In this document: piece after piece, positions 440 to 53,390 of the stretch
Numbering within the stretch: the stretch's first letter is position 1
Layout: each line of letters starts with the position of its first letter
Origin: Punica granatum
Taxonomy: Eukaryota; Streptophyta; Magnoliopsida; Myrtales; Lythraceae
Length of the DNA stretch: 64,000 nucleotides
Assembly (NCBI RefSeq): GCF_007655135.1
Contig: NC_045131.1
Span: 7,688,001 to 7,752,000 of the forward strand
Direction: 5' to 3'
Notes under the pieces: generated by a model
The model's database searches: none
Told to the model about the DNA's origin: nothing
What the model saw: the letters and a program-made list of their open reading frames with translations, nothing else
Program-made: the position numbers and the translations under genes

Positions 440-952
440 ATCGATTCTCTTCTTCCTCTCTCTCTCTCTCTCTCGACAAAATCCTAAAATCGAAGAGAGC
501 CTTCCTTTCCTTCCTTCCTCTTTTTACAATTTTTTTTTCCTCTGCCGCCACAGTTCACACACACATACAGAAAAGCCGCCTCCACCCTCCCCTCCACCCC
601 CGTCGCTCTCCGCCTAGGGTTTCTAGGGTTCTTCTCGGGGCTCCGACTCGCCCCGCCCTGCTCCCCGGGGGCTTCTCCGAGCTGGATTTTCTCTCCTACC
701 TCTTGCGCATCTCCATGCGCCGCTGGTTTAGCGGCTTCGTCGATTAGCTCCCCCCCCCCCCCCCCCCCCCCCCTGCCGATCCCCCGCTCTCGGCCCCTCC
801 CCTCTCTGCTTTCGCTGCTCATGATTTCTCCATCCGTGCAAACTCTCACACGAGCTGGCAGCTGAGACTGCTGATTTAGCTGTCCGCTTGGTATCGGTGC
901 TTTGGTCTCTCTCTGGGAATCGTTCCTTGGAGTGGGTTTGGCGGGGAATTGG
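440..952 (+). promoter_or_regulatory. RAPTOR1 promoter-proximal and 5' leader region with uORFs
   Basis: The stretch upstream of the RAPTOR1 start holds a CT microsatellite (456-474), a telo-box-like doublet (cctagggtttctagggtt, about 613-630) and a run of 24 C residues (750-773). It also holds two short uORFs, at 715-747 (10 codons plus stop) and 821-865 (14 codons plus stop). CT-rich leaders and telo-boxes are common in plant growth and translation genes. The transcription start is not visible, so it is uncertain whether the uORFs are in the mRNA. Confidence 0.45.
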
Positions 953-3900
953 ATGGCATTAGGCGATTTGATGGCGTCCAGGTTCTCGCAGTCCTCTCTG
1001 GTGGCGTTCGGGTCTAACCACATCGACCGCTATGATGCGTTCGCTTCCTCCAGCAATAGCAATGAAGACAGTGATTTGGTCCCCCACAGGAGGGATTCTG
1101 AGGTCGCGAGCAATAGCTATGCAAATGGTGGAGCTCACGCCACCACCAGCATGGCCTACTTGCCGCAGAATGCTGTGCTCTGCGATCTACGGCACGAGGC
1201 CTTTGAGGCTTGTGTGCCCTGTGGTCCCTCCGACAGCGGTCTCGTTTCAAAATGGCGGCCTAAGGACCGGGTAAGACCTCATAGTTCAGTTGTCCTGTGC
1301 TCGTGTACTGAAGCTATTACCTGCGAATGCTTGTTAACTTTCGCAGTATGAATTAGGGATTCTGATTCTAAATTTGTTCTCCTTTAGGTATGCTAATTGC
1401 ATACTGCAAGATGAGATTTTGTGGAAAGGGAAGGCTAGTCTGGAACAGCTTGTTTTTAGTTAATATGAGGTCACTAGGAAAATTTATGCGCATTTTGCTC
1501 AGAAAGTTGCTGTGTGTTTCCAATCTTTCTCTTTGCGATCTTCGACGGTTGCTGTGACCAGTCTAAACTTTGGCTCTGAATTATGTTCAAACTGCAGGCT
1601 GCCTGCAGTTTGAACATTGAAAATACTGGCAATGAGCTTTTGATTGTGATATTCCTGCAGTATGTCAATCCTAGGAAAAAATTTTGGGGGATAGGATACT
1701 CATATTTCACTTTTCTGAATGAAATTGATGGCTGTACCATCGAGGATTTTGCAGTGAGCGAATGGTATCCAATCATCATAGGTAAGTTAAAATCATAGGT
1801 AAGTTAAAATAAGACCATGCGAATTGATTTCTAGTTAAAGTGCCAAAAATTGGTTTGGATAATGATAAAGAGTTCCCACCTTCAGTACTCTCCATATTAG
1901 AGGATTTTTCACAACCATGTCCTTAGAGGTGAGATGAGACAAAGGGGGATTTATCAGGGGTTAGATGCCAGTGTAATGGAAGCTACAACACTGAGCTTGA
2001 GCAGTTCATGGCTAGGAAGAGAAAGGACAGAACTTCCTTATTGGAACATAAACCTTAAGCCTGACCAATTAGTTGATCTTGGATTAAAAGTTGAAAGTTG
2101 TCATGGTTACTAGAACTCTATTCTGGAGCATCCTTGGTATGGAACTTTACTGTCCTCCAGAATCATTTTCTAGAGCAGCGTGTGTCAATTCTGTATTGGT
2201 ATTTTGCATAGTGCTAGTTTTCTGGCAGCTGGTTTAGATTATTGAATCTTGGACAACTGGAAAAGTCAAGTGAATTGGGAAACACCCACTTCTTTATTCC
2301 TGAATAATGTGGGAAGATAGTACATTTTGTTTCTGTTGCTACATCATGCATATTTTTATGAATTTTCCCAGGGGAAAATATGACAGATAAAGAATAGCGA
2401 AGAGGGTAAATCTTACTTTGTTTTATAGCTATAAAATAGGCCATTTATCAAGCGGATCCTTTCTTCCCCCATGCTATGCTGGATAGATGTTTCGAAAAAA
2501 GACATCGGAAGAGTCCAAGAGTTTTCCTTTGTATGCAAGTGGAGAGAATGATATCCTATTAGAAGGAAGAGGATTCTGAGGAGGCCTTTATGGCTCTATT
2601 ACCATTGAATATTTTGTTTTGGTGGGGTTGCAAGGCTCTTATGAGTACATGTCAAGGAGGCCTTTTGCTGCAGTTTCTGAATACTCTGGTCTATATCATC
2701 TTCATACTTCGATTTTATAATATTTTCGTCTGAATGCTTTGATAGGAGTTGTGGAGGAAATGTCGTGTTCCTTTTTCTTAAAGATCAGGATGTTACTATG
2801 GATAAGTTGATCTCTTTTTTTACTTTATTTTGCCTGAAGAATTTGTCTTGATGTCATGGGAATACAAAAATCAGTTAGTTGGAACTGATATTGATGATGA
2901 GTCTGCTTCTAAATGGTTTTGGTGGGAGGGAGAGAGCTTAGAAATGGGCCATGCTTTGCAATACCTATAAAAGAGAAGAATCTTGCAACTATGCTTTCCT
3001 GTATAGCTGTGTCTAATAATGTGCATTTTTTCTGCAGATGAAAACAGGATGTGTAGCTATAGTTTTGTGTTTAAACATAAGCGTTGACCCACCTGATGTA
3101 ATTAAGATCTCTCCCTGTGCCAGAATGGAGTGCTGGATAGGTATATCAGTTAATTGTTAAACTGCAATTCTCTTGTACCATTTTGTATTTAAGTCACTGC
3201 ATCTATTCAAATTAAATAATTTGGAATTTCAGCGCCTCTCTTTATTCCAGGAATGTTTCTATAATAAATGCCAAGGGCTTTTTCTGTAAATATTTGTATA
3301 TTTTTAATTAAAACTATATAAATCCAATTGTTATTCATGAATTTTTGTTCGTTTTAATGTCAAACATTTAGCATGGCATGTTTTTACCTTCAAAATGCCT
3401 CCATTGCAAGAATCAGAGCAGGGGATGACATCTTCCGAGCTAGAGCATTAGAGAGCGGGGGGGAACAATTGTTCTGAAAGTTTTGCAATTTATGCTCGAG
3501 TCATTTAATTTCCCTTACTTAGAAAGGGGAACAAAATCACCCTTAATTTGGTAAACACACCTTCTTTGTGTTTTTGTTAAGATGGGCTTTTATTTCCCCC
3601 ATTTAAATGCAGATCCATTTTCTATGGCACCTCGAAAAGCTATCGAAACAATTGGAGAAGCCTTGAAGAGACAGTATGAAAGGTGGCAACCCAAGGTAAG
3701 GTGTTTCTTGTCTTTACTGATGATTTGATCTCTTGATGTGTGTTGACTCTAACATCATCTGTCTGTTCACCATCAACTGGTCAGGCTTGCTATAAGGATA
3801 AACTCGATCCTACTGTAGATGAAGTGAAGAAGCTTTGTACAGCATGTCGCAAATATGCTAAGTCTGAGCGGGTTCTTTTTCATTATAATGGACATGGTGT

Positions 3901-6900
3901 ACCAAAGCCGACTGCCAATGGTGAAATCTGGGTGTTCAATAAGGTCATTTATGCTGCTCCCAAATTTTTCAGCTAGTCTATTTGTTAACAGTTGCTAGTT
4001 CCTATCTGTTCCTTTTCATTTCCTAACTGAAATTGTTTTCACAGAGCTATACGCAATATATTCCCTTGCCTATCAGTGACCTTGATTCTTGGTTGAAGAC
4101 ACCATCTATATATGTGTTTGACTGCTCTGCTGCTGGGTTGATTGTTAATGCCTTCAGTGAGGTACTATGGGATGCTATTTTTATTTTGCATTATTTGTAT
4201 GCATGTAAATGCATTGATCCTATGCCATAATAATTTGTTTGTAATTTTCCCCCCCTGAAGCTTCATGACTTAGGCTCTTCTAGCTCCGTTGGATCTGCAA
4301 GAGATTGCATTCTTCTTGCAGCTTGTGAAGCACATGAGACTCTTCCACAAAGTGCAGAATTTCCTGCTGATATATTTACTTCATGCCTCACTACACCAAT
4401 TAAGATGGCTTTAAGATGGTAAAAAGTAGCTCCTTATATGTCATTTCTTAAGTAAGCTTGTTTCTTTTAACAGTTTAGTATTAGTATTTAAGGGTGATGC
4501 ACTTTTCTTTCTGGTTACTTCTCTCCCCCACCAATTTAGCTTGCATTCTTCAGTTCTCGTGGTTATCCATTTGCTAAGTATATGCTGTCTGTTCGAGAGT
4601 TGGGTTTATCCTCTGACGGCTAAGTTCTTAGGTTCCTTATTCTTTTATAATTCTTCACTTCTAATTGTCCCTTGAGTTACTCCCCACAATTTGCTTTCTG
4701 TAATATCTAATTCTGAGAAATCGTGTATCAGGTTTTGTGCTCGGTCATTACTCCGCGAATCTCTTGATTATTCACTTATAGATAAAATTCCTGGTCGTCC
4801 AAATGATCGGAAGACACTTCTGGGCGAATTGAACTGGATATTTACTGCAGTAACAGACACAATTGCCTGGAATGTTTTACCTCATGGTAATGCTGTTTCT
4901 TCAATATTTGATCATTGATGCTATTTTCCTGTCTGTAATAATTACTCAAATTTTGGGTTCAGATCTGTTTCGGAGATTGTTCAGACAAGATCTATTAGTT
5001 GCCAGTCTGTTTCGGAATTTTTTACTCGCTGAGAGGATCATGCGGTCAGCAAATTGTTCCCCAATTTCTCATCCCATGTTGCCTCCAACCCATCAGCACC
5101 ATATGTGGTAATGCCAGATTTTCTTAGAAGTCTGATTTAAGTCAAGTGGGGTAAACTTGCTTGGGTTAATTGTACCTGTTGTTTTCACTCCAGGGATGCC
5201 TGGGACATGGCTGCTGAAATCTGCCTCTCTCAGCTCCCAGCTTTGATTGAGGATCCTACAGCAGAATTTCAGGTTTGTTCTCCAAACCATTCTCATCGAG
5301 CATGCTTTATATGTTGTCCTGTTCTTAATAATGTCAATGTTTTCTGTCATTCTTTCAGCCAAGCCCCTTCTTTACGGAACAACTAACAGCTTTTGAGGTG
5401 TGGCTTGATCATGGAAATGAGCAGAAGAAACCACCAGAGCAGTTACCTATAGTTCTTCAGGTGTGAAAATTTTCTATTTCCTGAGCTTAAGCTGATGATC
5501 TAATTACTGTTCTGTTGTGTTGCAGTCTTTATTTATTTATTTATTTGTGTGATGCATAATCTGGTGAACTGTATATAAACTTCGGTAGTCTGGTTAGGCC
5601 TTTCTTTTTTTTTTTTTTAAAACGATTATGTCCTATATACCTTCGCTACTTATCCGTATCATCTTTCGAAATGTTTATTTTGTTGACTTGTCCGAAGACA
5701 TGTGCCCCTTTGTATGAGCTGATGTGGCTGGATGAGTATATAATGGTTTAGTAATATTTAAGCATCACAGAGATAATTGCAGCAGCTGCACCTTCATTGT
5801 AAAAGTTCAAGAGTTTCTAGGTCTAATGATTGACGAAGAAAGCACAATCCATTTGGTTGACATTATGCTTGTTACAGTTGTAAGAAGAATGGACCGTAGA
5901 TTACATATGATATCTCACCATTATGCAACTGTTGTTTCAGGTTCTGCTCAGTCAAAGCCATCGATTTCGAGCACTTGTTCTGCTTGGAAGATTTCTAGAC
6001 ATGGGATCCTGGGCTGTGGATCTGGTAATAGTTGCTGACCTGGGTGTTGTATTCTCTCAGTATATGCTATCCTTACAGTTTTACCATTGTTAACGGATTA
6101 ACAGATGTATTCTTCTCTTGCAGGCCTTGTCTGTTGGAATATTTCCTTATGTTCTTAAGCTGTTGCAAACAACGACACCTGAACTTCGGCAGATTCTGGT
6201 ATTCATATGGACCAAAATTCTTGCACTTGACAAGGTAAAGTTTAATATACTGTCTCGCATATTGTAGCAGTATGTGGAAACCTTGGATGGTAGCAAATAT
6301 TGTCCAAATATACAATGGATATATTATACAGGATATATAACTATCTGAAAAGTTTAATTTTATTACATTTGGTGCGTGCCAATTCATTGTATCAGCATTA
6401 TGTCATTTTGACAGAAGAATGAAAGGGGCAAGACATATACATAAGTTCTGGTTGAAGATGTTTATTTTCAATGCTCTTTTTGCATTTCCCTATTTCTTCG
6501 TTATGATTATCTTTATTTGACTCTGGAATTCTTGTAATATAGTCATGTCAGGTGGATTTGGTAAAGGATGGGGGACACACATACTTCATCAGGTTTCTTG
6601 ATAGCATTGAAGCATTCCCAGAGCAGCGTGCAATGGCTGCATTTGTTTTGGCGGTCATTGTTGATGGCCACAGGAGGGGTCAAGAAGCCTGTATTGAAGC
6701 TGGTCTGATCCACGTCTGTTTGAGGCACCTACAGAGTTCAAATCCAAATGATGTGCAAACCGAGCCTTTATTTCTTCAGTGGCTTTGTCTCTGTCTGGGA
6801 AAGGTTTGGGAGGATTTTACAGAGGCTCAAATGATTGGTTTGCAGGCTGATGCCCCTGCCATATTTGGCCCTCTATTGTCTGAGCCCCAGCCCGAGGTAA

Positions 6901-9900
6901 TATCATGTAGCTTTATCGATTTGTCTTCGGTCTTTCATTTTCCGTCGTCTTGTACTACCTTGATTCTGAAATCTGTTCCAATTCAGGTAAGGGCTGCTTC
7001 TGTTTTTGCACTGGGTACGCTGCTTGATGTTGGCTTTGACTCGAGCAGAGATGGTGGTGGAGGAGATGATGAATATGATGACGATGAAAAGATTAGGACT
7101 GAAATTAGCATTGTTAGAAACCTTCTAAATGTCGTATCAGATGGCAGCCCACTGGTGAGGGCAGAGGTTGCTGTGGGTATGCTATCTACTTATTAACCAT
7201 GGTTTCATTTCTGGCTGTTGCTTCAGTAATATGACAAACATCTAACAGCTCTAGCTGTTGTACATACAAATTTTAGACTTAATTTTTTAGGGGAACAAGG
7301 AGTACCTTATATTTGGACAATACTGACTATATCCCTTTTCTTTTGGATACTTTGTTTTCCACAACAGCTCTTGCACGGTTTGCTTTTGGCCACAACAAGC
7401 ACCTTAAAGCAGTTGCTGCTTCATACTGGAAGCCGCACTCTAGTTTGCTGACATCTTTGCCTTCACTTGCTCAAATTAAAGCCCCAAGTAGTGGTTATAC
7501 CACGCCTGGGAGTATTGTGGGACCATTGCTACGGGTAGGTGCTGACAACTCATCAGTGCGAGATGGAAGGATCTCCTCTAGCAGCCCTCTGGCATCTTCT
7601 GGAATTATGCATGGATCTCCATTGTCTGATGATTCATCTCAACATTCTGATTCTGCAACGGTTAATGATGGCATGAGCAATGGTGTCACCAATAATTGCA
7701 GGCCAAAACCACTAGATAGTACTATGTACTCCCATTGTGTAGCAGCTATGTGTACTTTAGCTAAAGATCCTTCGCCACGTGTTGCAAACCTGGGTAGGCG
7801 GGTACTTGCTATTATCGGAATTGAACAAGTCGTGACTAAACCTTTGAAAGCTGGCTCTATCATACGGCCAGCCGAACCTGCAAAGGGAACTGCCCTTGCT
7901 GGACTGGCTCGTTCATCTTCATGGTTTGAGATGCATGCATCAGGTATTAACAATTCGGTCCTCTATTCACCCCCTTCTTTTCACCATCAATCCAGTAAAT
8001 ATCTAAAACGTAACAGTTTCTACTTGAACGTGACAATTTCCCCCCTTTCTTCAGGTCATTTGCCATTGACATTTAGGACGCCTCCAGTTAGTCCTCCTCG
8101 ACAAAGTTACTTGTCTGGAATGCGAAGAGTTTGCTCTTTGGAGTTCAGGCCCTACCTTATGAGTTCTCCAGATTCTGGTCTGGCCGATCCACTTTTGGGT
8201 TCAGGGGGAACAGAACGCAGTTTTCTTCCACAATCAATTATCTATAACTGGAGCTGTGGCCACTTCTCCAAGCCAGTTCTTGGTGGAGCGGATGATGGTG
8301 ATGAGCTGCAGATTAGAAGAGAAGAGAGGGAGAAATATGCACTGGACCACATAGCAAAATGCCAGCACTCATGTGAGGCCCTTTCCATTGATTTGTCACC
8401 TTGGATTTAATGGTGAAATTGGTGCTTGTGCTCATAGTTCCAAATACTTATGATTTCTTTTTTGAATTCAGCTGTAAGCAAGCTCAACTATCAAATTGCT
8501 AGCTGGGATACCAAATTTGAAACAGGCACCAAAACAGCATTGATGCAGCCTTTCTCTCCAATTGTGATTGCTGCAGATGAAAATGAGCGGATCAGGTATT
8601 TTGGAATTTATTAGTTTATGCTTAGTCTTTACTTAATGGTGTTTTAGACGTACAAATAAAAAGATGGGACAACTATGGAAGCTGCTAGTTTTGGGGTAAT
8701 AATTTAAGCCCAGCAGTTTCCACCCAGACATAAGATGGGATTCATGTGTACGAATCCCTTTGTTGAGTAATGTCATAATTGGCCTTGTTTGTTTCTAGTG
8801 GTTTCATTTTTATATGGCTGCAGCCCCAACCTTTATATATGAACAAATGCTAAGAGTTGAGACATGCCAATGCAAGCACCAGATAATAGAAGTAATACCA
8901 GGAGATGCGACTTTTCACTACTTGCAGATTGAAAATGGATGTCTTACTTTGAGTTTGTGATGTCTAATTTGATGAAGTTGGTAGAAGATCAGGCTTTCTC
9001 TCTCTCTCTCTCTCTATTGCTGGCCGATTTCAAATTTATTACCGTTTGCTGTGTGCATTTCATTTCTTGGCAGGGTCTGGAACTATGAAGAAGCCACACC
9101 TCTGAATGGCTTTGATAATCATGATTTTCCAGATAAAGGAATTTCTAATCTCTGCCTTATCAATGAGCTTGATGAGAGCTTGCTCCTTGTTGCATCATGT
9201 AATAAGCTCAATTCATCTTCTATACTTGGTTGCCTATGGTTTTAGGAAGACTTATCTTGACGATGAGTTGTTGAATATGATTTACGATCTTTGCAGGTGA
9301 TGGGAATATCCGAATTTGGAGAGATTATACTATTAGAGGCCAACAAAAACTTGTCACAGCATTCTCATCTATCCAGGGACATAAGCCTGGTGTGCGGAGT
9401 TTGAATACTGTGGTGGACTGGCAACAACAGTCAGGCTATTTGGTAGGTTCTTCTAAATTTGTATCTTAAAATATCATGAGCCTGGTGTATTTGAACTTTT
9501 TCTCTCTCCTTTTTGGCATGAATTCGAATTGTTTACATTAAACCAATATTTTTATTTCCAGTATGCTTCTGATGAGATATCTTCCATCATGGTCTGGGAT
9601 CTTGATAAGGAGATGTTGGTTCATTCTATTGCATCTGGCTCAGATTGCAGTGTTTCTGCCCTGGTGAGCCTTTCTACCAATATTTTTGCGATTTGAACTT
9701 TTGACTTCGTTTCATGGATTGGAGAATGATATTTACTTTTAGGTTCATGATTTGGTTCACATGTTCCCCTTGAATTGAAGTTGGTCCAACTAAATAAAAA
9801 ATGCTATCTACATGTGATTTTGTATGTGTGGTTCCCAATTCCTCTGTATTTCTATGGTAAACAATATCTACACTTTTTTTGTCCAAATCCTGGAGGTGGT

Positions 9901-12193: not shown

Positions 12194-15100
12194 TCACCTC
12201 CACCCACCAACCCTATTTTGCCCAGAAATGCCTGACAAGCTCGAGGTTGATGTACCATTTCCCGTCTTATTTCCTTTGTCTCCATTACCGAGCACGTTGA
12301 GATCTTCAAACAACCTGTATGAAGGAACGTAGGGTTTTTGACCTGTTGAAGATGGGGCAGACGCAGGACCTGCAGTAACACTTGTCCTGTTATTTACTAG
12401 AGGCGGGTTGATGTTTGGAAAAGGTCTCCCCCCTTCAATTGAGGTTTGAGACGACCCCTGCCCTCCAGCAAATCCAAATGGACGAGCTGACATGGGCAGA
12501 GACTGCTGATTATCCAAAGAGCTCAAACTGGATGCCCATGGTGGAGGAGGGTACCCATAATTGTTCTGAGGATACTGAGGTTGCATGCGTGTCTGCTCCA
12601 AAGGTAGCGCCCGTGGTTGCATTTGTTGCTGAGCCCACGGGGCAATGTAACTGCTATAAGCAGCCTGTCCGGGAATATCAAAATTTGGCTGGGAACTGTA
12701 TGGATTTGCCTGCCCGTTTGAGGAATTGGGTATAGTGTGCACACTTTGGTTGGAAGGGGGAGTACTAGGAGGATCCTGAGAAGAGACGGAGGTAGTTGTG
12801 AGGGCAAGACTTAGAAGGTCAATCATGTCCTGCTCCTTTGTAGTCCTAACAGGTGGAGGCAGATCTGTCAAAACCAAGGCCTTTGAGGTGGCAGTAGTTG
12901 GGGCATCTGGCGTCGGAATACGAATTTGATCGGCTGTTTCAGTTGATGTGGGACTCATAACGCTTCCAGTGAATGTACCTGGGGAAGCAGGTGATCTCGA
13001 ATGCCTACATTAAAAGGGAAGAGTCCTCGTCAAGGAGGAAGAGAAAATGAAACTCCGAAAAAAGATGGTTTTATAGAACATGAGGGCATAAACTGATTGG
13101 TTATACGGTCAATATCCAATGTTGGTGCAAAGGAATCTGTTACTGACCTTCGAGCTAGCTGTGCAAAGTCATCGTCCTCTTCCTCCTCATCGACGAATCC
13201 CCTTGAGAAAGTGGCAGCAGGGGACTGGGGACTAACATTAGTTCTCGGGCTGATGTCTCTTTTGGTTTCACTCGGTTGGCTCCTCTTTTCAGCTGCTGGA
13301 GGGCTCAAACTCGTAGATTGACTCGACACTGTAGATTCAGAGGCAATATCTGTAGCCTGACTTGGAACCACAGAGCCATTGGCTATAGCATCATGCTTTG
13401 CGAGAGAGTTCTGCATAACATCAAGCAACTCGAGGCCTCGACCAAGAAGTTCCTCGTCCCTGCACCATGTCAAAATGTTATGACCAGTGCTTGAAACTTG
13501 TTAAATTACACTTAAGGAAAGAAAGTACTTGGGATTAGAGATTTACTCGGTTGTGGTAAGCATTTGCATTAGCTTCTTTTGGTTTGCACGACAGCGGTCA
13601 ATAAGATCAACTACAATATCATCCTTCACAGCCTACAACCACAATTTATGAGTCAAAAACTACAGTGAATGCACGGAAAGGACTAACCATCTCAGGGCAC
13701 CTACCGCTGCGTCACCGGGATTCATAGCCTGAAGCATGTCACTTAAGAGCTCCACAATATTCTGCATGGATTCCAATGTTGATGCACTACAGAGAATGTC
13801 AAAGAAAATGTCGAGATTGTATGTTTGACGTAACATGCATAAGGGAAATAACACCAATACATTGGGAAAGGCTGATAAAAAAAGCAGTGTCTACAGAATA
13901 AATCCTAACCTCAGTCTGTCTTTATCTGCTGCCATAGCTTCATCAAGTCTTCTCGACGAATTGGTTGGCATTCCATAACCTCCTTGAGCATGTGCGATAG
14001 GATGAGCAACAGGAGGCGTAAATATAGGAGCCACAGGTGATAAGCGTCTTGGGAATGTTACTCCAGAACGCTGTAAAAGAATGATCCTCCAATGAATATT
14101 GATGATGAACAAGCAACGAAAATACTGTTGTCTTGACATTTAAAAATTTTCCATCTTCCTAATAGTGTGTCATGAGTCATTCCATCTCAGATGCTACTAC
14201 ATAAGGAGAAAGGGCAGAATTGGGGTATCAACAAATGAAGGCTAACCTAAAGGAATGGCGCTCAGATCCGGATCCTAATTTTAAGCATTATTGCTGAAAT
14301 TGAAATTAAGTAGGCTGCTGAAAGAGATTTCCCTCCTCCCCCACTTTCTTTCTTTTAATCAAGCCGAAAGAGATTGCACTGGCAATGTTTCACTTAAGGC
14401 ACAAATTAATTCTTAATTGTGTCTATTGGCAAAATTAACGGAGAAAGTATAGAGATGTCATCAGTGTGCTTACTCTTAATTCATCGTATGCATAGTAATA
14501 TTGAGGATATTTTCCTCCTTGCCCGCCAAAAGCTTCCTGCCAAATATCTAATAGTGACAGAGTTTTATCCTGCACACTCATCTCTCTCTGCAACATAAGT
14601 TCAACAAGGTAACATGGCCATGAGAAGATTTCTCACATTCAACATAAAACGCTCTCAGGAGAAATTGCTCATCGGTCGCTAGATTTTTTAAACGTATAGT
14701 CTAGTATTTCAAGTTGATAGAACCAGCAGAACTAACCATAATACTCTCCAACATTTTCAGTTTCAGCAACATGATATGTAATGGTTTTTTTTTTTTTCCG
14801 TGACTTGAATTGTTGACAACATAGGTATGAGCAATATTACTTTTATAGGGATTCATTCTGATAAAAGTAATATGTTTGCTAGATGCTAACAGCAAAGCAG
14901 TAAACAGGAAGAATTTCTCAAGTACTCACCTTTTTCTTTACAATTTTGACCATTTCCTCGAGTATATTCCTCTCCACAATTTGAAAATGGATATAATCAC
15001 CACAGTTATTCACCATGGCCTCCAAAAGCTGCAGAAAAGATGCTTCTCTTTCAGGATAATAAACTGTGTAGTGGCTCATTTGAAAATGAACCCGGTTCTT

Positions 15101-15885
15101 CCCACACTGAATATTTGCAATATATGCATGACAAAGAATAAGATAAACGGCAGAACACTATCTAGTCATGTCTCTCAAACAAGCACCTATATTTCCAACT
15201 CGCAAGCTTGTAAATCAGAATTACATAGGTGGTATCTGGTTTGATCAATTATTCATTCGGAAACTACGAATGAGACCCATAGATTCATTGCATATTAATC
15301 AACTGAAGCCCAAAAGAGAAAAGTCATCGAAAGTACCGTCAGAGCAAGGAATTGAACTCTAGGATTCTTATGCTGTAGCCTTTTCTTCACTGCTTTTAAG
15401 ACATCTCTAGCCTGCCTGAGCAATGGGAAGGTGTACACATCAGGACCGTAATTCGAAAGCAAAATTGAAGCAACCGGCAAAAATCTCTCTTTAATAATAC
15501 AGAAGCAGATTGAGAGCAGACTGCGGAGAGTTTCGTCTCCCTCAGCAAATGAGGAAATTAATGACAGAAAATTTCAATCAACAAATTATGGCATGAACAT
15601 CAAACGCTCGAAGATGCACATAATTCAGCAAAAAACATAATCATCAATGGATAAATTCAACGTCGAGCAGAGCTGACAGTCCAATACATGCAAAACCTAG
15701 AAGCTCCTCTCCTCGTGATGGAACCGGGAACGGCACTCGAGTAAGGAAAACGGCTCGGATTACCCGGGATAAGTGTTGACGAAATCGCATATGTCGATGT
15801 TCATAGTCCAGTCAGGGTTGATCAGAAGGTCGCTCGTCGCCTTCTCCACTCGGACCGTAGCTGAGGAAGACGAAGCTGACAACAT
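12194..15885 (-). CDS. TOL: TOM1-LIKE (TOL) protein, VHS-GAT ubiquitin-sorting adaptor
   Basis: TOL proteins bind ubiquitinated cargo at the plasma membrane and endosomes and act as the plant ESCRT-0 substitute. Nine exons in transcript order are 15885-15764, 15415-15337, 15028-14930, 14587-14474, 14070-13910, 13786-13705, 13632-13547, 13459-13107 and 12978-12194, totalling 1881 nt or 626 aa. The VHS domain covers about residues 10-165 and includes LINPDWTMNIDICDFVN and KAVKKRLQHKNPRVQ. The GAT domain covers about 195-280, through ANQKKLMQML and DEELLGRGLELLD. A clathrin-box-like DMIDLLSLAL and a Pro/Gln-rich tail ending in the conserved PYVPSYRLFEDLNVLG follow. The gene is closest in type to Arabidopsis TOL6/TOL9. 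The acceptor of the last exon was chosen at 12978 because the nearer AG (exon start 13004) breaks the frame. Confidence 0.93.
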
Positions 15886-20149: not shown

Positions 20150-22862
20150 TTAATCATCGTTGTCCTTGTCCTCATTGATCTCTTCAAGAATCACGATCAG
20201 TGCAGTGATGAAGGCACGGTCGATGTTAGGGTATACTGTCACAGAGAAGGTATCCTTCCCGAGGACAACCTTCTGCACCGTGTGTTTTGTATGCATCTGC
20301 ATAATTCAATTTCAATAAGAGAATCAAGGGAGAACTTCTACAGAAGATGGAAAACCAAGGGAAACAAATGGGTGAAAAAGAGAATATTGGTCGCTCCTTT
20401 TTAATTTCAAATTATACAAGGGCTATCTTTAAAAAACAATGAATTCTTCGCTCTTGCAAGGTCTCATTTAGCAAAGAGACTTCAAAAGACTATATTGGCG
20501 GATGCCGGATCACTGTATCCAACTTTAATGTTCAGTCATTGGAAGTGGGCTGCTATGCGAACAGGACTGAACTGGCTGCCACACGAACTATTCCAAATTG
20601 AACGTCCATTGAACCAACTGGACCCAAATCACATGATTGTATAAATCCTAGATTTCTGATATAAATAGTGAGATCGTTCCAAACATATAAATTTCTCCAA
20701 TTGATTAGACCCATAGCAATGCCTGGAAGACTAAAGCCTATCCAGATGTCTGATCCCTCTACTTTTGGGTCTTTAATAGTTGGGACTGATTGTGATCTTA
20801 AGGACTATATTTACCTGAGCAATGACCATGGAACTGTCCCCAGCATATATGGTGCATGATCTCTCTAACCAGCTCCCTTCAACCTTAAAGTTGGGAACAT
20901 CTTCTTTCGTGTTAGCAGCAAGGAACACATCTAACTCGGTCTTGTACTGGATTAAGGATGATTTCTTGGCACTGAAAAGCAAATCCTCAGAGTCCGAGCT
21001 TTCTCCCCTGAAAACTTGCCATCGCCGGTGTGCTGTTAATTTCTGAATCAGAAAAATACAAGCAACATTTATTTCTTAACGAGGTTTGTAGATACTTGTT
21101 ATTCAGATCAGACAAGAAACTACAAACAACTTTCATAATATATATGGGACTGACTAATCACCAAAACTCAAGCAGCAAATTCCCTATTTGTAATGGAAGT
21201 ATGAGCTATCAGTTATCATTAATTGCATTGTATTATATGCATGTGTTCCAGCACAAAATGAAGGCACACATACTCTGAAGAATATCATATAGGTTCATGA
21301 ATCTCATTTAGCAACAGGTTGTGTAAAGCCAGTCCAAGGCCGTACTTGGCTCTGTTCGTGAATTTGTAGATGGCAAGCGATGATCCCATACACATAGTCA
21401 TAACTGGTGTGTTAAAACGAAGTTGTCGCTTTCTTTTCTAACAATGATCTAAGATTACGATTTGGCTGCAGAATAATCAAGTTCAACAACTGAAGATAGT
21501 TACATCTCCAACGACCCTCATTACCCATAGAAGGTATAAAGAGATCTGGAGTTTTAACCAATGCATGCCACTATGAATATATTTTTCTTTTCATCAGCAA
21601 AAGAAAGAAAAGTACAGTGGTTGCTCCAGGATTTAATTAGTTCAGGCACGAAACTGCAACTCTCCCCTCTTAAATCAAAGCAAAAAGTAGCAAAAGAAGC
21701 ATAGTTGCCTCACTGAAGAAACATTGCATCGATTGCGTGACTTAGAGAACGAAACAACGAAAATGAACTTGTAAATATCAGTTTCTGCACATTCTGCCAT
21801 TGAAATGATATCATTCTCATCAGTATATCCACCATTTAATGTTCCCACATCTCTTTACGCTAATGTTCATGGCTCGAAACAACTCCTTCCATTAGCCAAG
21901 TTTGTAAGCACATTTTTGGAGTAATTTAAACTGGAGATATACACCCATTAGATCCACAGACAGAGTAGACACGAACAGCCAAGCAAAAAGAGTTCACAAG
22001 GGTACAGAATCTCCCCAGATACAGAAAAATGTTTGTTTATTTTAGGGAAAAAAAAAAACCTACGAAAGAGCTAATCGTGGGGCCGGTTCCAAAAGGCTCG
22101 GAACTGTTGGATGGGGGACTATTCCCCCTCCAGGCCTCCTGACTGGTCCGACCTTAGGACCATAAGATTTCCTGGTAAAAAGCTTCCGGAACTGCGACTA
22201 GAACCGATGGATGGTATCGGTAATTTGTGGAAAGCGACTCCTCAATGAATTTCATTTGTTTATTTATTAATGACAAATGAAAAATGCTTGATACCATTTG
22301 AAGATACATATGTCTTTTTCAAGGTGGTCTTGTCCTGTTCTAACACGCTCTGTCCCAAAGGTTTGGCTCCCCACTTCCCTTAATATGATTCATTCATTCC
22401 GACATCGAGTAAACTAAACTTGCAGCATTACACCATCTGCTTAATCCTTATGATCTAATGAAATGCAAAAATAGAATTGGAAATCTCAAAAGCACTGCAA
22501 GCCATTACAAACGCATTAGACGACAGAGCAGAACTTATCTATATAAGCAATGAGTGGAGGATGAGGGAGGCGTTGGGGACGGGGTGTCGGGATACCTTCT
22601 GGCGAAGAGTGGCGACGGGGTGGCCGGCGGCGTCGAGCAGGACGCGCCGGTCGTGGAAGCTGAAGTGAGCGCCCCGCACTCTGAAGACAGTGTTGTCGTC
22701 GACGTCTGTAACGAGGAAATTGCCGTCGGTGACAGCGATGAGCTTCCGGACGATGGTGAGATCCACCACGTAGGGGACGCAGAAGGCGGAGCTGACAACC
22801 GCCACCGGCCGGGCCATCGCCGGGTAGCTCGACTCCGCCGCCATCATCAGAGACTTGGCCAT
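20150..22862 (-). CDS. LURP-one-related (LOR, DUF567) protein
   Basis: Three exons, 22862-22596, 21042-20815 and 20296-20150, encode 213 aa. The family is the tubby-like LURP-one-related group; Arabidopsis LURP1 is needed for defence against oomycetes, but the biochemical role of most members is unknown. The protein matches LOR15-type members along its length. Exon 1 has CVPYVVDLTIVRKL and FRVRGAHFSFHDRRVLLDAAG, exon 2 has HRRWQVFRGESSD and GSWLERSCTIYAGDSS, and exon 3 has KDTFSVTVYPNIDRAFI and an acidic C-terminus. The first exon is much more GC-rich than the other two. The start at 22862 is the first ATG in frame. The introns are about 1.55 kb and 0.52 kb. Confidence 0.92.
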
Positions 22863-22939
22863 CCGCGATCGCCGCAATGCGACAGCCAGCCCAGCTGAGA
22901 GAGTGGCTCAAACTTACTTTACGGATGGGGATTTTGAGC

Positions 22940-24310: not shown

Positions 24311-26440
24311 GAGATGAAAGCAGAGATGATCGAGGGGTCTGGGGGTGACACTACCCCTTAAAATTTTGACATTATATGCTATCATAAGTTTTTCTTCTAT
24401 ATTCGTCCCCCCAACACGGGATAGTTTCTTTTAGTTATTTAATTTCTCTTTGATAGATCAAATGTATGATAGAAATCCTAATAATTAATAAAGTAGTACG
24501 GGTAATCTGACAATAAGTATTAAATCTGAAACATCTTGATTATTATGTGAAAGCGTGCGTTACTGCGCTACATCTTCTTTGATTAATTACAATACTCGAA
24601 CCCAAGATTTGATTAAGGGAAGATGTGTTAAATTATCTAAACTAACTCACCCTGGCGCTAATTTTCATCATATATAGCTGAAGGGGTTATCTTATTTCTG
24701 GTCAAAGCTGTAGGGGTTCTCTTATTCATTGGAAAAATGAAAAACAAACGGAAAAACGAAAACACAAATTAAGGCACAGACAAGGTACAAGATATATTAG
24801 TTAATATAAGTCATATGGCTGCGACAGCCAAACCGTATATACCTTAACTTCTTCCTTCTCTGTGTAAATCTTTCGACAAAGTCCCACACAACGAGATTAC
24901 AACTGAAAATATTCCCACGCAACTCCAGCTGCGTTTTGCGCCACTTCACGATCATTACCGATCTACCAAAAATGCCCTCGATTTGGAGAGCTTGAGAGAA
25001 GAAAAAGGGCGGCCAAAAAGGAGATTTTGTTCCGTGAGCCCCACATAAATTCTAGCTCGTGCAAAATACACGGACATGTCAGCACTCTGTTAGCCACTGT
25101 ATCTCCGTCAATTTGCCATGTCAGATTCTTGGATGGAATCATGGATGGATGATAAATTGCGTGATATAATGAAAGTTGTGTATTTTACAAATAAAATTTT
25201 AGTTTGTGATAAAAAGTGGAAAATATGTAAAGCTTGTGATTTATTAGGTCATTTTCCCTAATGTTAATAGCTGCCTGGTCGGTATGTCTAGATGCGAGAC
25301 ATCCTAAACATAGTATGCTATTCGGGTTTTGCTTTGCATATATCTTCCCCAAAAGTTAAGCTAAGATACAGATATAGTAAGATATCAGTTGGTAAATGAT
25401 CTTTAGGATGCGGTTATGGCATTGTTGTTCGGTCGGGGCTGATGATCGATAATTTCAGATGATGTTGTGCTAAGAGGATTAACAATGTCTAATTACCACT
25501 TTTATAAACCGATCCCAAATATTGAGGGCCGCCTCTATGAATTTCCAAGTATCCAATAATCTCATCGAACAAGATTTTCTTTTTCTTTTCTTTTTTTTTC
25601 TTTTTTCAATCATAGGGTATATATGGTCGTGTCTCATCACGTAATACCATAGGCATGAATATGCAAGAGCTAGAAAACTAAAGATTGATTGAGACCGGGG
25701 GACCACGGCCGCCATTGGGATAAGTCGTCTTCATTATTCAGATTATAGAATTGATATCACTCGTTTTCCGACATTGAAAATTCATAAGGCAAGTTGATGA
25801 TCTATTGCTTGGCTCCCAAAGTAAAAGCCCCCACGGAAACTAGACTTTTTTTCCAGCTCATTTTTCTCCCCAGTACGTAAGATTTTCTACCGAAAACTAC
25901 AATTCTGAAAATAAATGAAATAATTCGGCAGAAATATTATACGTACGCTAGATTTTAATTTGGAGTTTTTAATGAATCAGTTTGAATATATCAAATCTAA
26001 AATCTTTAGTCCAATATACACATTTAGCTCAAACCGCTCCATTTTCCGTTAGGTCCTTTTTTTTTTTTTTGGCCACCGTTAGGTCTGTTTATCGGGTGAT
26101 AACATGGACATAATGAAAAAATGGCTAGTTTGGATGAAATGTATATAACGGACTAAATGTTTTAAAATCGATGTAACCAAATCGATTCATTTAGGACTCG
26201 AATTCAGAGTTTAGCGTACTTTATATGACTTTCGTTGTAATTATCGCTCCAGCGAATTAATAAACCTGCATAAGATATATAATATGATAAGTGTATTGTG
26301 TATAACTAAAATAATGGTTCAACTTTATTGTAATCTCATATACACATACCAATTGCTCATGACTCATAGGCACGCCCCGGATCCTTCTAGCTACGACAGC
26401 ATATAATGTAAAGCCGAGAGAGAATCGATGAATAAGGTGC
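24311..26440. other. Intergenic DNA between the plastid insertion and MIR164
   Basis: There is no supported gene. A tRNA-SINE-like stretch lies at about 24420-24660, with taagtattaaatctgaa, gcgtgcgttactgcgc and ctcgaacccaag; it resembles 58070-58185. A TTTC-rich tract lies at about 25575-25606. Nothing else was recognised. Confidence 0.45.
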
Positions 26441-26893
26441 GAGGGTCACGATGGGGAAGAAGGGCACATGCACAAGATAAAATAATAACACCCAATTCAT
26501 ATGTTCCTAGAATGTGTAGATTTTCATGAAAACTGTTGCATACACATCCACAATAGCTCGATATAGCTGGTGCTAACATTAGAAATATATAAGGGATTAT
26601 TTCATTCTTTCATCATCATAAAAAAAAAAGAAAAAAGAATAAATAGTATTTGTGAAAATATGAGAGGTTTTAATCAAAGAGAGGAAGTTGATCAGGATGA
26701 AGGGAAGTGAGAAAAAGGAGTTTTCTAGTTCCTACAAAAATGATCGAAATGATTGATCAAATGGGGGTATATATATATATATAATGTAAAATTAAATTTT
26801 ACAAATAGAAATAGATTGTTAAATTACCATATGATGAAGTAATGTACTATTATGTAGATATATGCACGTGCCCTGCTTCTCCAGCGTGCTCTC
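26440..26893 (-). ncRNA. MIR164: MIR164 precursor (microRNA164)
   Basis: On the - strand, 26883-26863 is an exact copy of mature plant miR164; it begins TGGAGAAGCAGG and ends CACGTGCA, 21 nt. The opposite arm is at 26472-26452, which pairs with it at 18 of 21 positions, and the expected star with a 2-nt 3' overhang (CATGTGCCC...CCCCATC) is 26470-26450. Star strands of this form are known for miR164. A short GCAC/GTGC match below the duplex adds to the stem. miR164 directs cleavage of NAC transcripts such as CUC1/2, NAC1 and ORE1, and so limits organ boundaries, lateral roots and senescence. The 5' arm carries the mature strand, as in the family. The long loop, about 390 nt with a TA tract at 26769-26782, is unusual. 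Confidence 0.85.
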
Positions 26894-27019
26894 TTCACAC
26901 ACCTTCTGTTCTTGTTCTTCTTATGATGAATATGATCATCAGTTCAAGCTCAGAACTCCGCAAGCTTGAACTGATAAGTATATATGCTATATGTCGTGAT
27001 TAATGAAGCCTTGGCTGGC

Positions 27020-27029
27020 TTTTATATAT
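27020..27029 (-). promoter_or_regulatory. TATA box for the MIR164 primary transcript
   Basis: Read on the - strand this is ATATATAAAA, followed by gccagcc. It lies about 137 bp upstream of the mature miR164 and would place transcription start near 26990. A perfect 13-bp inverted repeat (26938-26973) then falls in the 5' leader of the primary transcript. The inference is from position and sequence only. Confidence 0.45.
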
Positions 27030-27171
27030 GGAGGAGAGAAGAAATTGACGAGTACTCCCCCAGCCAACCAGAGCCAGTGTTTTTTTCTTTTTCTTTTTCC
27101 TTTTCGGATTTCCACCATATATGGTATTCGAAAGCCTAATAGATACTAAATGATCTATGTTCGAGCTGGAT

Positions 27172-27284
27172 CATGCCCACTAAAGGATAAGCTATTTATA
27201 TCGTGGATTTTCTCCATTCAAAAATTCACCCGAGATTTTGCTTGAGGAGAAGAGGCGTTGAACTATCTGAACTAATTCACGTTT
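27172..27284 (-). repeat. Degenerate family-B tRNA-SINE copy
   Basis: Blocks cccactaaaggataag, gtggattttctccattca, attcacccgagattttgctt and gaactatctgaactaattc match the order seen in the other family-B copies. No target duplication was found. Confidence 0.4.
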
Positions 27285-27914
27285 TTTTTTTTTCCCTTTT
27301 GTTGGGCAATAAGGACCTTCTACGGTCATACATGCAGTAGATCGATCTATTAAATGGACAGAGCAAGAAGGATATCTATTATAACCTTGAAAAAGGAATA
27401 AAGATATAGTCGTAATGTAGACTTCGATTGACGATGTTAACTCGAATTCGGATCATTGATTGTCATCCCTCGTTGGGAACGTCACACATTATTTTCTTGG
27501 CACGATCCAAACTTTTGTTTATCTGTGGGTTTATAAATAATTTGGTTCAATCGACAGTAATTGGATGACTGATTGTCATTTTTACTAGACCCGGACATGC
27601 TCATATTGTCATTTCGAGTGAGTCTAGTTAGATGCTTTTCGACGAGGATCTTATGATTCTTGTCCCATAATCTTACCTTTCCCCTATCCAAATTTCACTT
27701 TTGGAAGACAAATCAATGCGAGTGTTTTAGACGCAAATCCAGTTGAAAAACTCTTACATTTGACTGTGCCTTGATGGCTATACGGGGATCTAGATCATGA
27801 TTAATTAACTGATTAAATCATGCTTTAGTTCTAGTCAACAAAATCTTGTTTTTGTGAGTAACAAATCAAAGGTCAATTTTCATCAGGTAAAACTGAAAAT
27901 TTCTAAGGACGGAT

Positions 27915-51335: not shown

Positions 51336-53390
51336 ATGATGTCTGCTTCAGTCTGCGACACGACCGGGCAAATCAGGAACCTCGTACAGGGTCTCTCCTC
51401 CCTTTCCCAGCTCCGGCCTCTTCATGCCGCCCTCCTCCGCCACGGCCTTGAACAGGACCCCTTCCTCCTCGGCCCCATCCTCCGCTTCGCCTTCGGCCTC
51501 GGCCGCACCTGCTACCCTCTCCTTCTCTTTCATCAGATCAAACGCCCCAGCGTCTTCCTCTGCAATACCGCCATCCGCGGCCTCGTCTCCAGCGACCGCT
51601 TCTCTGATGCCATACAGCTCTACCACTCCATGCGGAGTCGTCATAACCTCCTCCCCAACAACTTCACACTCCCCTTCGTCCTCAAGGCCTCCGCTCGGTC
51701 CTCGGATTCCGTCCTCGGGGTCAAGTTGCACGCGCTGGTGTCGAAGCTTGGGTTCGATCGGGATGTCTTCGTGCAGACGGGTTTGATCAGTTTGTATGCA
51801 AAGTGCGGGCTCCTCGAGGATGCGTGCAAAGTGTTCGATGAAATTCCCGATAAGAACACGGTATCATGGACTGCCATCATCACGGGGTACATGGACTCCG
51901 GGATGTTCCGGGAAGCCGTCGATATGTTCCACAGGCTTCTCGGTTCGGGCATGAAGCCTGACGGTTTTACACTTGTGCGGGTACTTTCTGCCTGCGCCCA
52001 CCTGGGGGACTCGGCCACCGGGGAGTGGATGGATCGGTACGTAACCGAGGAGAGCGGGACGGGAAGGAATTTATTTCTTGCAACCGCATTGGTGGACATG
52101 TATGCAAAGTGCGGGGACATGGAGAAGGCCCGTGGTGTCTTTGACTCGATGCCAGAGAAGGACATAGTCTCATGGAGCGCGATGATTCAGGGCTATGCAT
52201 CCAATGGGCTTCCCATGGAAGCCCTCGACATGTTTTATCGGATGCTGGATGAGAATATGAGACCCGATTGCTATGCCATGGTCGGGGTGCTCAACGCCTG
52301 TGCAAGGCTTGGAGCACTGGGGTTTGGTGAGTGGGCCTGTGATCTGATGGGCCGGGACGAGTTCCTCGATAATCCGGTATTGGGCACAGCGCTGATCGAC
52401 ATGTATGCCAAGTGTGGGGCTATGGCACGGGCCTGGGAAGTCTTCCAAGAGATGAGGAAGAAGGACCAGGTGGTGTGGAACGCAGCCATCTGTGGCCTTG
52501 CCATGAACGGCCATGTGCAGGCCGTTTTTGGGCTATTTGGTCTCATGGAGAAGTTCGGGATCAAGCCCGATGGGAACACGTTCATGGGCTTGCTCTGTGC
52601 GAGCACCCATGCCGGTCTCGTCAGCGAGGGGCGCCGGTACTTCTACGGCATGGCTCGCATGTATTCCATTTCTCCGACGATTGAGCATTATGGTTGTCTA
52701 GTCGATCTCCTCGGCCGGGCAGGTCACTTAGACGAGGCACACAGGTTGATTATAAGTATGCCAATGGAGGCTAATACTATCGTCTGGGGAGCTCTGCTCG
52801 GAGGGTGTCGAATGCATCGAGACACCCAGCTGGGTGAATACACGCTCAAAAAGTTAATCGAGTTGGAGCCATGGAACTCAGGCAATTATGTGCTCTTATC
52901 GAATATCTACTCTGCGACCCGTCGATGGGACGATGCAGCGGAAATCAGGTCTAGAATGAACAGTGAGGGGATCCAGAAAGTGCCTGGGTGCAGTTGGGTC
53001 GAAGTAGGTAGCACTGTCCACGAGTTTCACGTCGGGGACAAGTCTCATCCATCCTCGGAGAAGATATATGAAAAGCTCAACAAGCTGGCTAGGGAAATGA
53101 AAGCGCTAGGTTATGTCCCGACCACAGAGTTTGTGTTGTTCGACATAGAAGAGGAGGAGAAGGAGCATTCCCTCGGTTGGCACAGCGAGAAGCTTGCGGT
53201 TGCCTTCGCCCTGATAAGTACCGAGGATAATGAGGTCATTCGGGTGGTGAAGAACCTCAGGGTGTGTGGCGACTGCCACGAGGCGATGAAGCTCATCTCG
53301 AGGATTACAGGGAGGGAGATCATCGTCCGGGACAACAACCGGTTCCATTGTTTCCGAGACGGTTCTTGCTCGTGTAAGGATTATTGGTGA
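51336..53390 (+). CDS. PPR protein, PLS-DYW class (At3g08820-like) organelle RNA editing factor
   Basis: This intronless gene encodes 684 aa, close to the length of Arabidopsis At3g08820, whose sequence it follows closely. PLS-type pentatricopeptide repeats run from about residue 40 to 490, with repeated [29 protein letters not shown] and [15 protein letters not shown] helices. E and E+ regions follow ([49 protein letters not shown]). The DYW deaminase has the zinc/catalytic motif H616-S-E618 with C644-G-D-C647, a second metal set around H671, C678 and C680, and ends in KDYW. Such proteins bind specific mitochondrial or plastid transcripts and convert C to U. The target peptide is not obvious. 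Two in-frame ATGs begin the frame (51336 and 51339), and an overlapping uORF starts at 51311. Confidence 0.95.

Follow-up and report, generated by a model that had tools for sequence, protein, structure and literature searches.

The window, the whole 64,000-nt stretch of Punica granatum DNA analyzed here (C5:7688001-7752000), holds, one after another, a RAPTOR gene, a VHS-domain gene, a LURP-one-related gene and a MIR164 locus. The protein-coding members of this series were as follows (positions are those of the window).

875..8410, + strand: exons of the RAPTOR gene, matched by PDB 5wbi, Regulatory-associated protein of TOR 1 (E 4.8e-24 for 875-1348; 1.3e-79 for 7283-8410).
12194..15573, - strand: exons of the VHS-domain gene (Pfam VHS at 2.6e-7, and a second match at 1.1e-4 that is under the curated cut-off), with a copy on C1.
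22542..22907, - strand: exon of the LURP-one-related gene (Pfam LOR, 3.1e-18).

The VHS-domain gene is presumably TOM1-like. The only PDB match of the LURP gene at E 0.01 was At5g01750. The parts of the MIR164 locus, some of them predicted, are listed next.

26434..26449, - strand: lower stem, 3' side, ending 16 nt below the star, which fits the 15-17 ruler discussed below.
26450..26470, - strand: miR164 star (3' arm).
26471..26862, - strand: loop, 392 nt, 27% GC, not clearly structured, with one match in the genome.
26482..26491, - strand: predicted upper-stem helix, 3' side (minimum-energy fold only).
26732..26827, - strand: candidate 96-nt intron in the loop (speculative, from a splice-site pair score).
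26768..26783, no strand assigned: (TA)8 microsatellite in the loop (tandem repeat search).
26844..26853, - strand: predicted upper-stem helix, 5' side, pairing over 10 bp with 26482-26491 (minimum-energy fold only).
26863..26883, - strand: mature miR164 (5' arm), present in four exact copies genome-wide, this one included.
26884..26905, - strand: lower stem, 5' side, predicted to pair to -22, with bulges.
27022..27028, - strand: TATA-box-like TATATAA that precedes the mature strand by 145 nt (consensus match only).

The query used for matching was the mature sequence of the miR164 family. It matched all 21 nt at 26883-26863 on the - strand, as the original prediction had it, which places it in the 5' arm, and no match with three or fewer mismatches appeared in 100 shuffles of the window. 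None of the viral contigs searched for the 21-mer contained it. The star proposed at 26470-26450 was likewise recovered: in the mature/star duplex 17 of 19 positions paired, with few mismatches and with 2-nt 3' overhangs at both ends. For the mature strand as a whole the predicted fold paired 19 of 21 positions, with a G-U pair at position 17 and mismatches at 4 and 9, so that the 18 of 21 given originally was off by one.

The next-best ungapped partner of the mature strand within 900 nt on either side reached 15 of 19, so that the number of pairs, taken by itself, singles out the star only moderately well. The overhangs, the lower stem and the shuffle tests add to the evidence for a hairpin.

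The inner distance between the arms was 392 nt, close to the 390 nt anticipated, and the whole hairpin measured 434 nt from end to end. Folding of the - strand, which had been proposed as a check, brought the two arms together in a 531-nt fold (z = -3.93), and none of 100 shuffles was equally stable. Flanks of 20, 50, 100, 200 or 400 nt were added on both sides, for folded lengths of 474 to 1234 nt, and the 17 duplex pairs then had a probability of at least 0.96. Without flank, the value for the first duplex pair fell to 0.72 and that for the second and third to 0.94.

When the loop was subjected to 60 dinucleotide shuffles, the pairing of the arms was kept in every one (mean pair probability 0.993, lowest 0.905). 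Shuffling of the 3' arm (the star plus 50 nt), also 60 times, abolished it (mean 0.017, highest 0.178). The loop folded alone gave -57.2 kcal/mol vs a mean of -53.6 (SD 4.7) for 100 shuffles, and the hairpin gave -112.5 with its native loop vs -105.0 (SD 4.7) with shuffled loops. The stability of the loop is thus at most slightly above chance, and the signal sits in the arms.

Just upstream of the MIR164 stem, 26930-26983 contains an inverted repeat whose 13-bp arms match perfectly and are separated by 12 nt (26938-26950 / 26963-26975). It is predicted to form a leader hairpin of -23.1 kcal/mol and was one of five places from the same window scan.

The 320-Mb genome was searched for miR164 with one mismatch allowed. 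Four sites were found, all of them exact, and each forms a hairpin with a partner that pairs at 17 of 19 positions.

L001, on C1: loop 119 nt, 39% GC, exact miR164.
L002: loop 44 nt, exact miR164.
Window locus, on C5: loop 392 nt, 27% GC, exact miR164.
L004: loop 54 nt, exact miR164.

The earlier statement that the loop is much longer than is typical was thus confirmed within this genome, in which the remaining loops measure 119, 44 and 54 nt. The stars are of two types, one in L001 and the window locus and the other in L002 and L004. L002 and L004 share the exact mature strand and a closed hairpin with the window locus, but differ from it in star type and in their short loops.

L001 shares the star type of the window locus. 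It has the exact mature strand, the same lower stem end, and LURP and VHS neighbors in the same order as the window locus, and its star differs at a single base. The loops, on the other hand, could not be aligned with each other, and that of the window locus is more than three times as long. Some 40 consecutive C residues in the leader of this duplicate (L001:1405-1445) are perhaps an assembly artefact.

Downstream of L001 on C1 are a LURP copy (46-47% identical), at 9 kb, and the VHS gene, at 23-26 kb, on the same strand. The relative order and orientation of this MIR164-LURP-VHS block are those of the window. When 11 protein pieces of the window were compared with the 70 kb around L001, one LURP piece and four VHS-gene pieces matched, and the RAPTOR, PLAC8, SDR and PPR pieces found no match in these 70 kb. 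A third, weaker LURP match was found on C8. It follows that one ancestral MIR164b-type gene gave rise to both the window locus and L001, and the duplication would most simply have been large-scale.

The Arabidopsis MIR164b precursor is roughly 150 nt, far below the 434 nt found here. Its mature strand is presumably of the same family as that of the window, and we take AT5G01760, in the MIR164b region, to be a VHS gene. MIR164b is AT5G01747 according to the portion of PMC5608315 consulted, and an excerpt of PMC12018779 places it in one region with RAPTOR1A (AT5G01770). RAPTOR1A and At5g01750 are the neighborhood that it has in common with the window. Thus the locus is syntenic with a known MIR164 locus, and this synteny, together with the duplicated block, makes the window gene a MIR164 by descent.

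Farther along the window, the PPR gene at 51336 gave many matches named after At3g08820, a region that RAPTOR1B presumably adjoins. In a PPR tree of 39 proteins out of 40 (one unlabelled row omitted), drawn from 120 of 7976 matches and containing no other named Myrtales family, the window protein grouped with Eucalyptus, Syzygium and two unlabelled rows, with support 100/99, so that the host is most likely a member of the order Myrtales.

Below the duplex, the 3' side of the lower stem was paired to -16 in the predicted fold, where a 4/5-nt internal loop opens. The stem ends at -16 on this side in three of the four genome copies (the window locus, L001 and L002), and that of L004 pairs to -11 and then elsewhere. 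The base-to-loop ruler, as given in parts of PMC8688358 and PMC9893293, is a lower stem of 15-17, and a paired lower stem of this length lies below the duplex at the window locus. Positions 1, 3 and 23 were paired in the window's hairpin; these are mostly paired in precursors, according to a section of PMC7577975.

Since the lower stem is kept, ordinary base-to-loop cutting by DCL1, with the loop discarded, is most likely the best reading of this hairpin. The original prediction held that the hairpin must be processed from its base. This seems reasonable from the predicted stem to -16 and from the inclusion of mir164b and mir164c in a list of base-to-loop precursors, as excerpted from PMC5322449.

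A likeness may be drawn with precursors of the pri-miR166c type, which have multibranched terminal loops; the window's gene, too, has a long loop predicted to branch. In such precursors base-to-loop is reported to be the more effective direction (PMC9893293, in the part consulted, citing Zhu 2013). However, pri-miR166c belongs to another family, and the window's loop, folded by itself, does no better than its shuffled versions.

Rfam at the gathering score gave no match in the window, RF00647 being below threshold at the window locus, and at a relaxed threshold 25900-27400 gave eight weak matches, none of them to MIR164. RF00647 also missed L001 and L002, and was met only by L004, where the Rfam MIR164 match (L004:1428-1523) lay antisense to the mature sequence. 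RF00647 is thus a poor test for these loci. The miss in the window does not come from loop length alone, because L001 and L002 were missed too.

Plant miRNA annotation under the 2018 criteria limits the foldback to 300 nt, as used in the portions of PMC6611575 and PMC6906386 consulted, and the 434-nt foldback exceeds this limit. The limit is an annotation rule, not a definition of the family. No statement about a MIR164 loop of this size was found in the passages of the literature searched, which does not mean that such a loop has never been published.

On our interpretation, which is very probable, the locus is a MIR164 gene that corresponds to Arabidopsis MIR164b, has a long passive loop and is processed base-to-loop. 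The exact mature strand, the star with its overhangs, the ordinary lower stem, the conserved neighborhood and the duplicate all point to a gene. What stands against this interpretation is the Rfam miss, the 434 nt that exceed the 300-nt limit, the unalignable loop, and the absence of RAPTOR from the 70 kb around the duplicate.

The tandem repeats found in the loop were a 16-nt TA run, which is the (TA)8 at 26768-26783 and confirms the predicted microsatellite, and a 24-nt A-rich repeat. Searched against the whole genome, with a tool that skips simple repeats and at the sensitivity it states, the loop matched only itself. Its matches to the rest of the window were mostly in its TA-rich and pyrimidine-rich stretches. 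Alignment with the loop of L001 did not rise above chance (24 of 200 shuffles were as good or better), and because the two loops do not align, they reveal neither where an insertion would end nor in which direction and how the length changed. Of the original suggestion of an expanded or invaded loop, expansion relative to the duplicate (392 vs 119 nt) stands, and invasion found no support.

It is possible, though unlikely, that the loop contains an intron, either the 96 nt of 26827-26732 or a 255-nt form with its end at 26573, in which case the working precursor would be shorter and the output of miR164 would depend on splicing. The loop is AT-rich, and its best donor/acceptor score, computed with a matrix written from recall, was reached by 3.5% of 3000 stretches of 392 nt drawn at random from the window, a weak figure, and by 3.4% of the 555 AT-rich ones among them, real genes included. 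The 255-nt form scores below the 96-nt form, which is the only one that the random comparison covers. Moreover, the fold works without splicing, and removal of the 96-nt form would still leave a hairpin of 338 nt. We regard the sequence as a weak hint of an intron.

About as improbable is a decaying duplicate, which has kept its arms and lost expression or efficient processing; in that case the length of the loop would reflect relaxed selection. The loss could be made up for by the three other exact miR164 loci, whose loops are far shorter. Decay would, however, be expected to touch also the mature strand, the star and the lower stem, and here the first is exact, the second compatible and the third kept.

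Slightly less probable still is the invasion of the loop by a transposable element. The loop is 273 nt longer than that of the duplicate, and it contains an imperfect 19-nt inverted repeat, 79% complementary (26598-26616 / 26831-26849), with ATAAT overlapping either outer end as judged by eye. This repeat, though, is one of 35 inverted pairs in 1.8 kb, and the loop's one match in the genome is itself. There are no convincing element ends, nor can ends be set from loops that do not align.

Outside the hairpin, at 26004-26157, lies another imperfect inverted repeat, perhaps a small transposable element, with a MIR4208 match far below threshold (E 0.014).

That the locus is a NAC gene fragment read in antisense, and no miRNA gene, is highly improbable: the + strand at 26863-26883 is complementary to miR164 by nature, but the locus has a hairpin partner with correct overhangs, is overlapped by no reading frame of at least 120 aa, and is syntenic with MIR164b.

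MIR164 is a brake on NAC growth-boundary genes. A degenerate target-site search of the genome gave seven places, namely the four MIR164 loci and three others (L013, L014 and L015). L015 is a near-complementary miR164 site in a NAC gene, with a Pfam NAM match (1.5e-9) in an upstream exon. L014 (G000:C7:27871682-27871702) encodes EHVSCFS, adjoins a stretch of 100 N, and presumably resembles the CUC genes. L013 (G000:C3:5436325-5436345) is a site resembling a miR164 target that adjoins an ABC transporter; no NAC domain was seen there.

As a MIR164b counterpart, the gene would be transcribed by RNA polymerase II, probably from the TATA-like box. DCL1 would cut first some 16 nt up from the stem base and then about 21 nt further on, and this would release the duplex. 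The 392-nt loop, an AT-rich and passive spacer, would be lost at the second cut. The miR164 so released may restrain mRNAs of the NAC/CUC type.

The locus is thus an ordinary, ancient plant microRNA gene with an unusually long and apparently passive loop. If an intron were present after all, splicing would set the size of the hairpin and couple the miR164 output of this copy to splicing, a coupling not shared by the short-loop duplicate on another chromosome. A deeply conserved miRNA can have a copy that goes unseen because of a 300-nt foldback limit, and common size filters would skip the window locus. The two duplicates form a natural pair within one genome, with the mature strand and the lower-stem length in common and loops of 119 vs 392 nt. 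Should they prove equally good at making miR164, the size of the loop would hardly matter for base-to-loop cutting.
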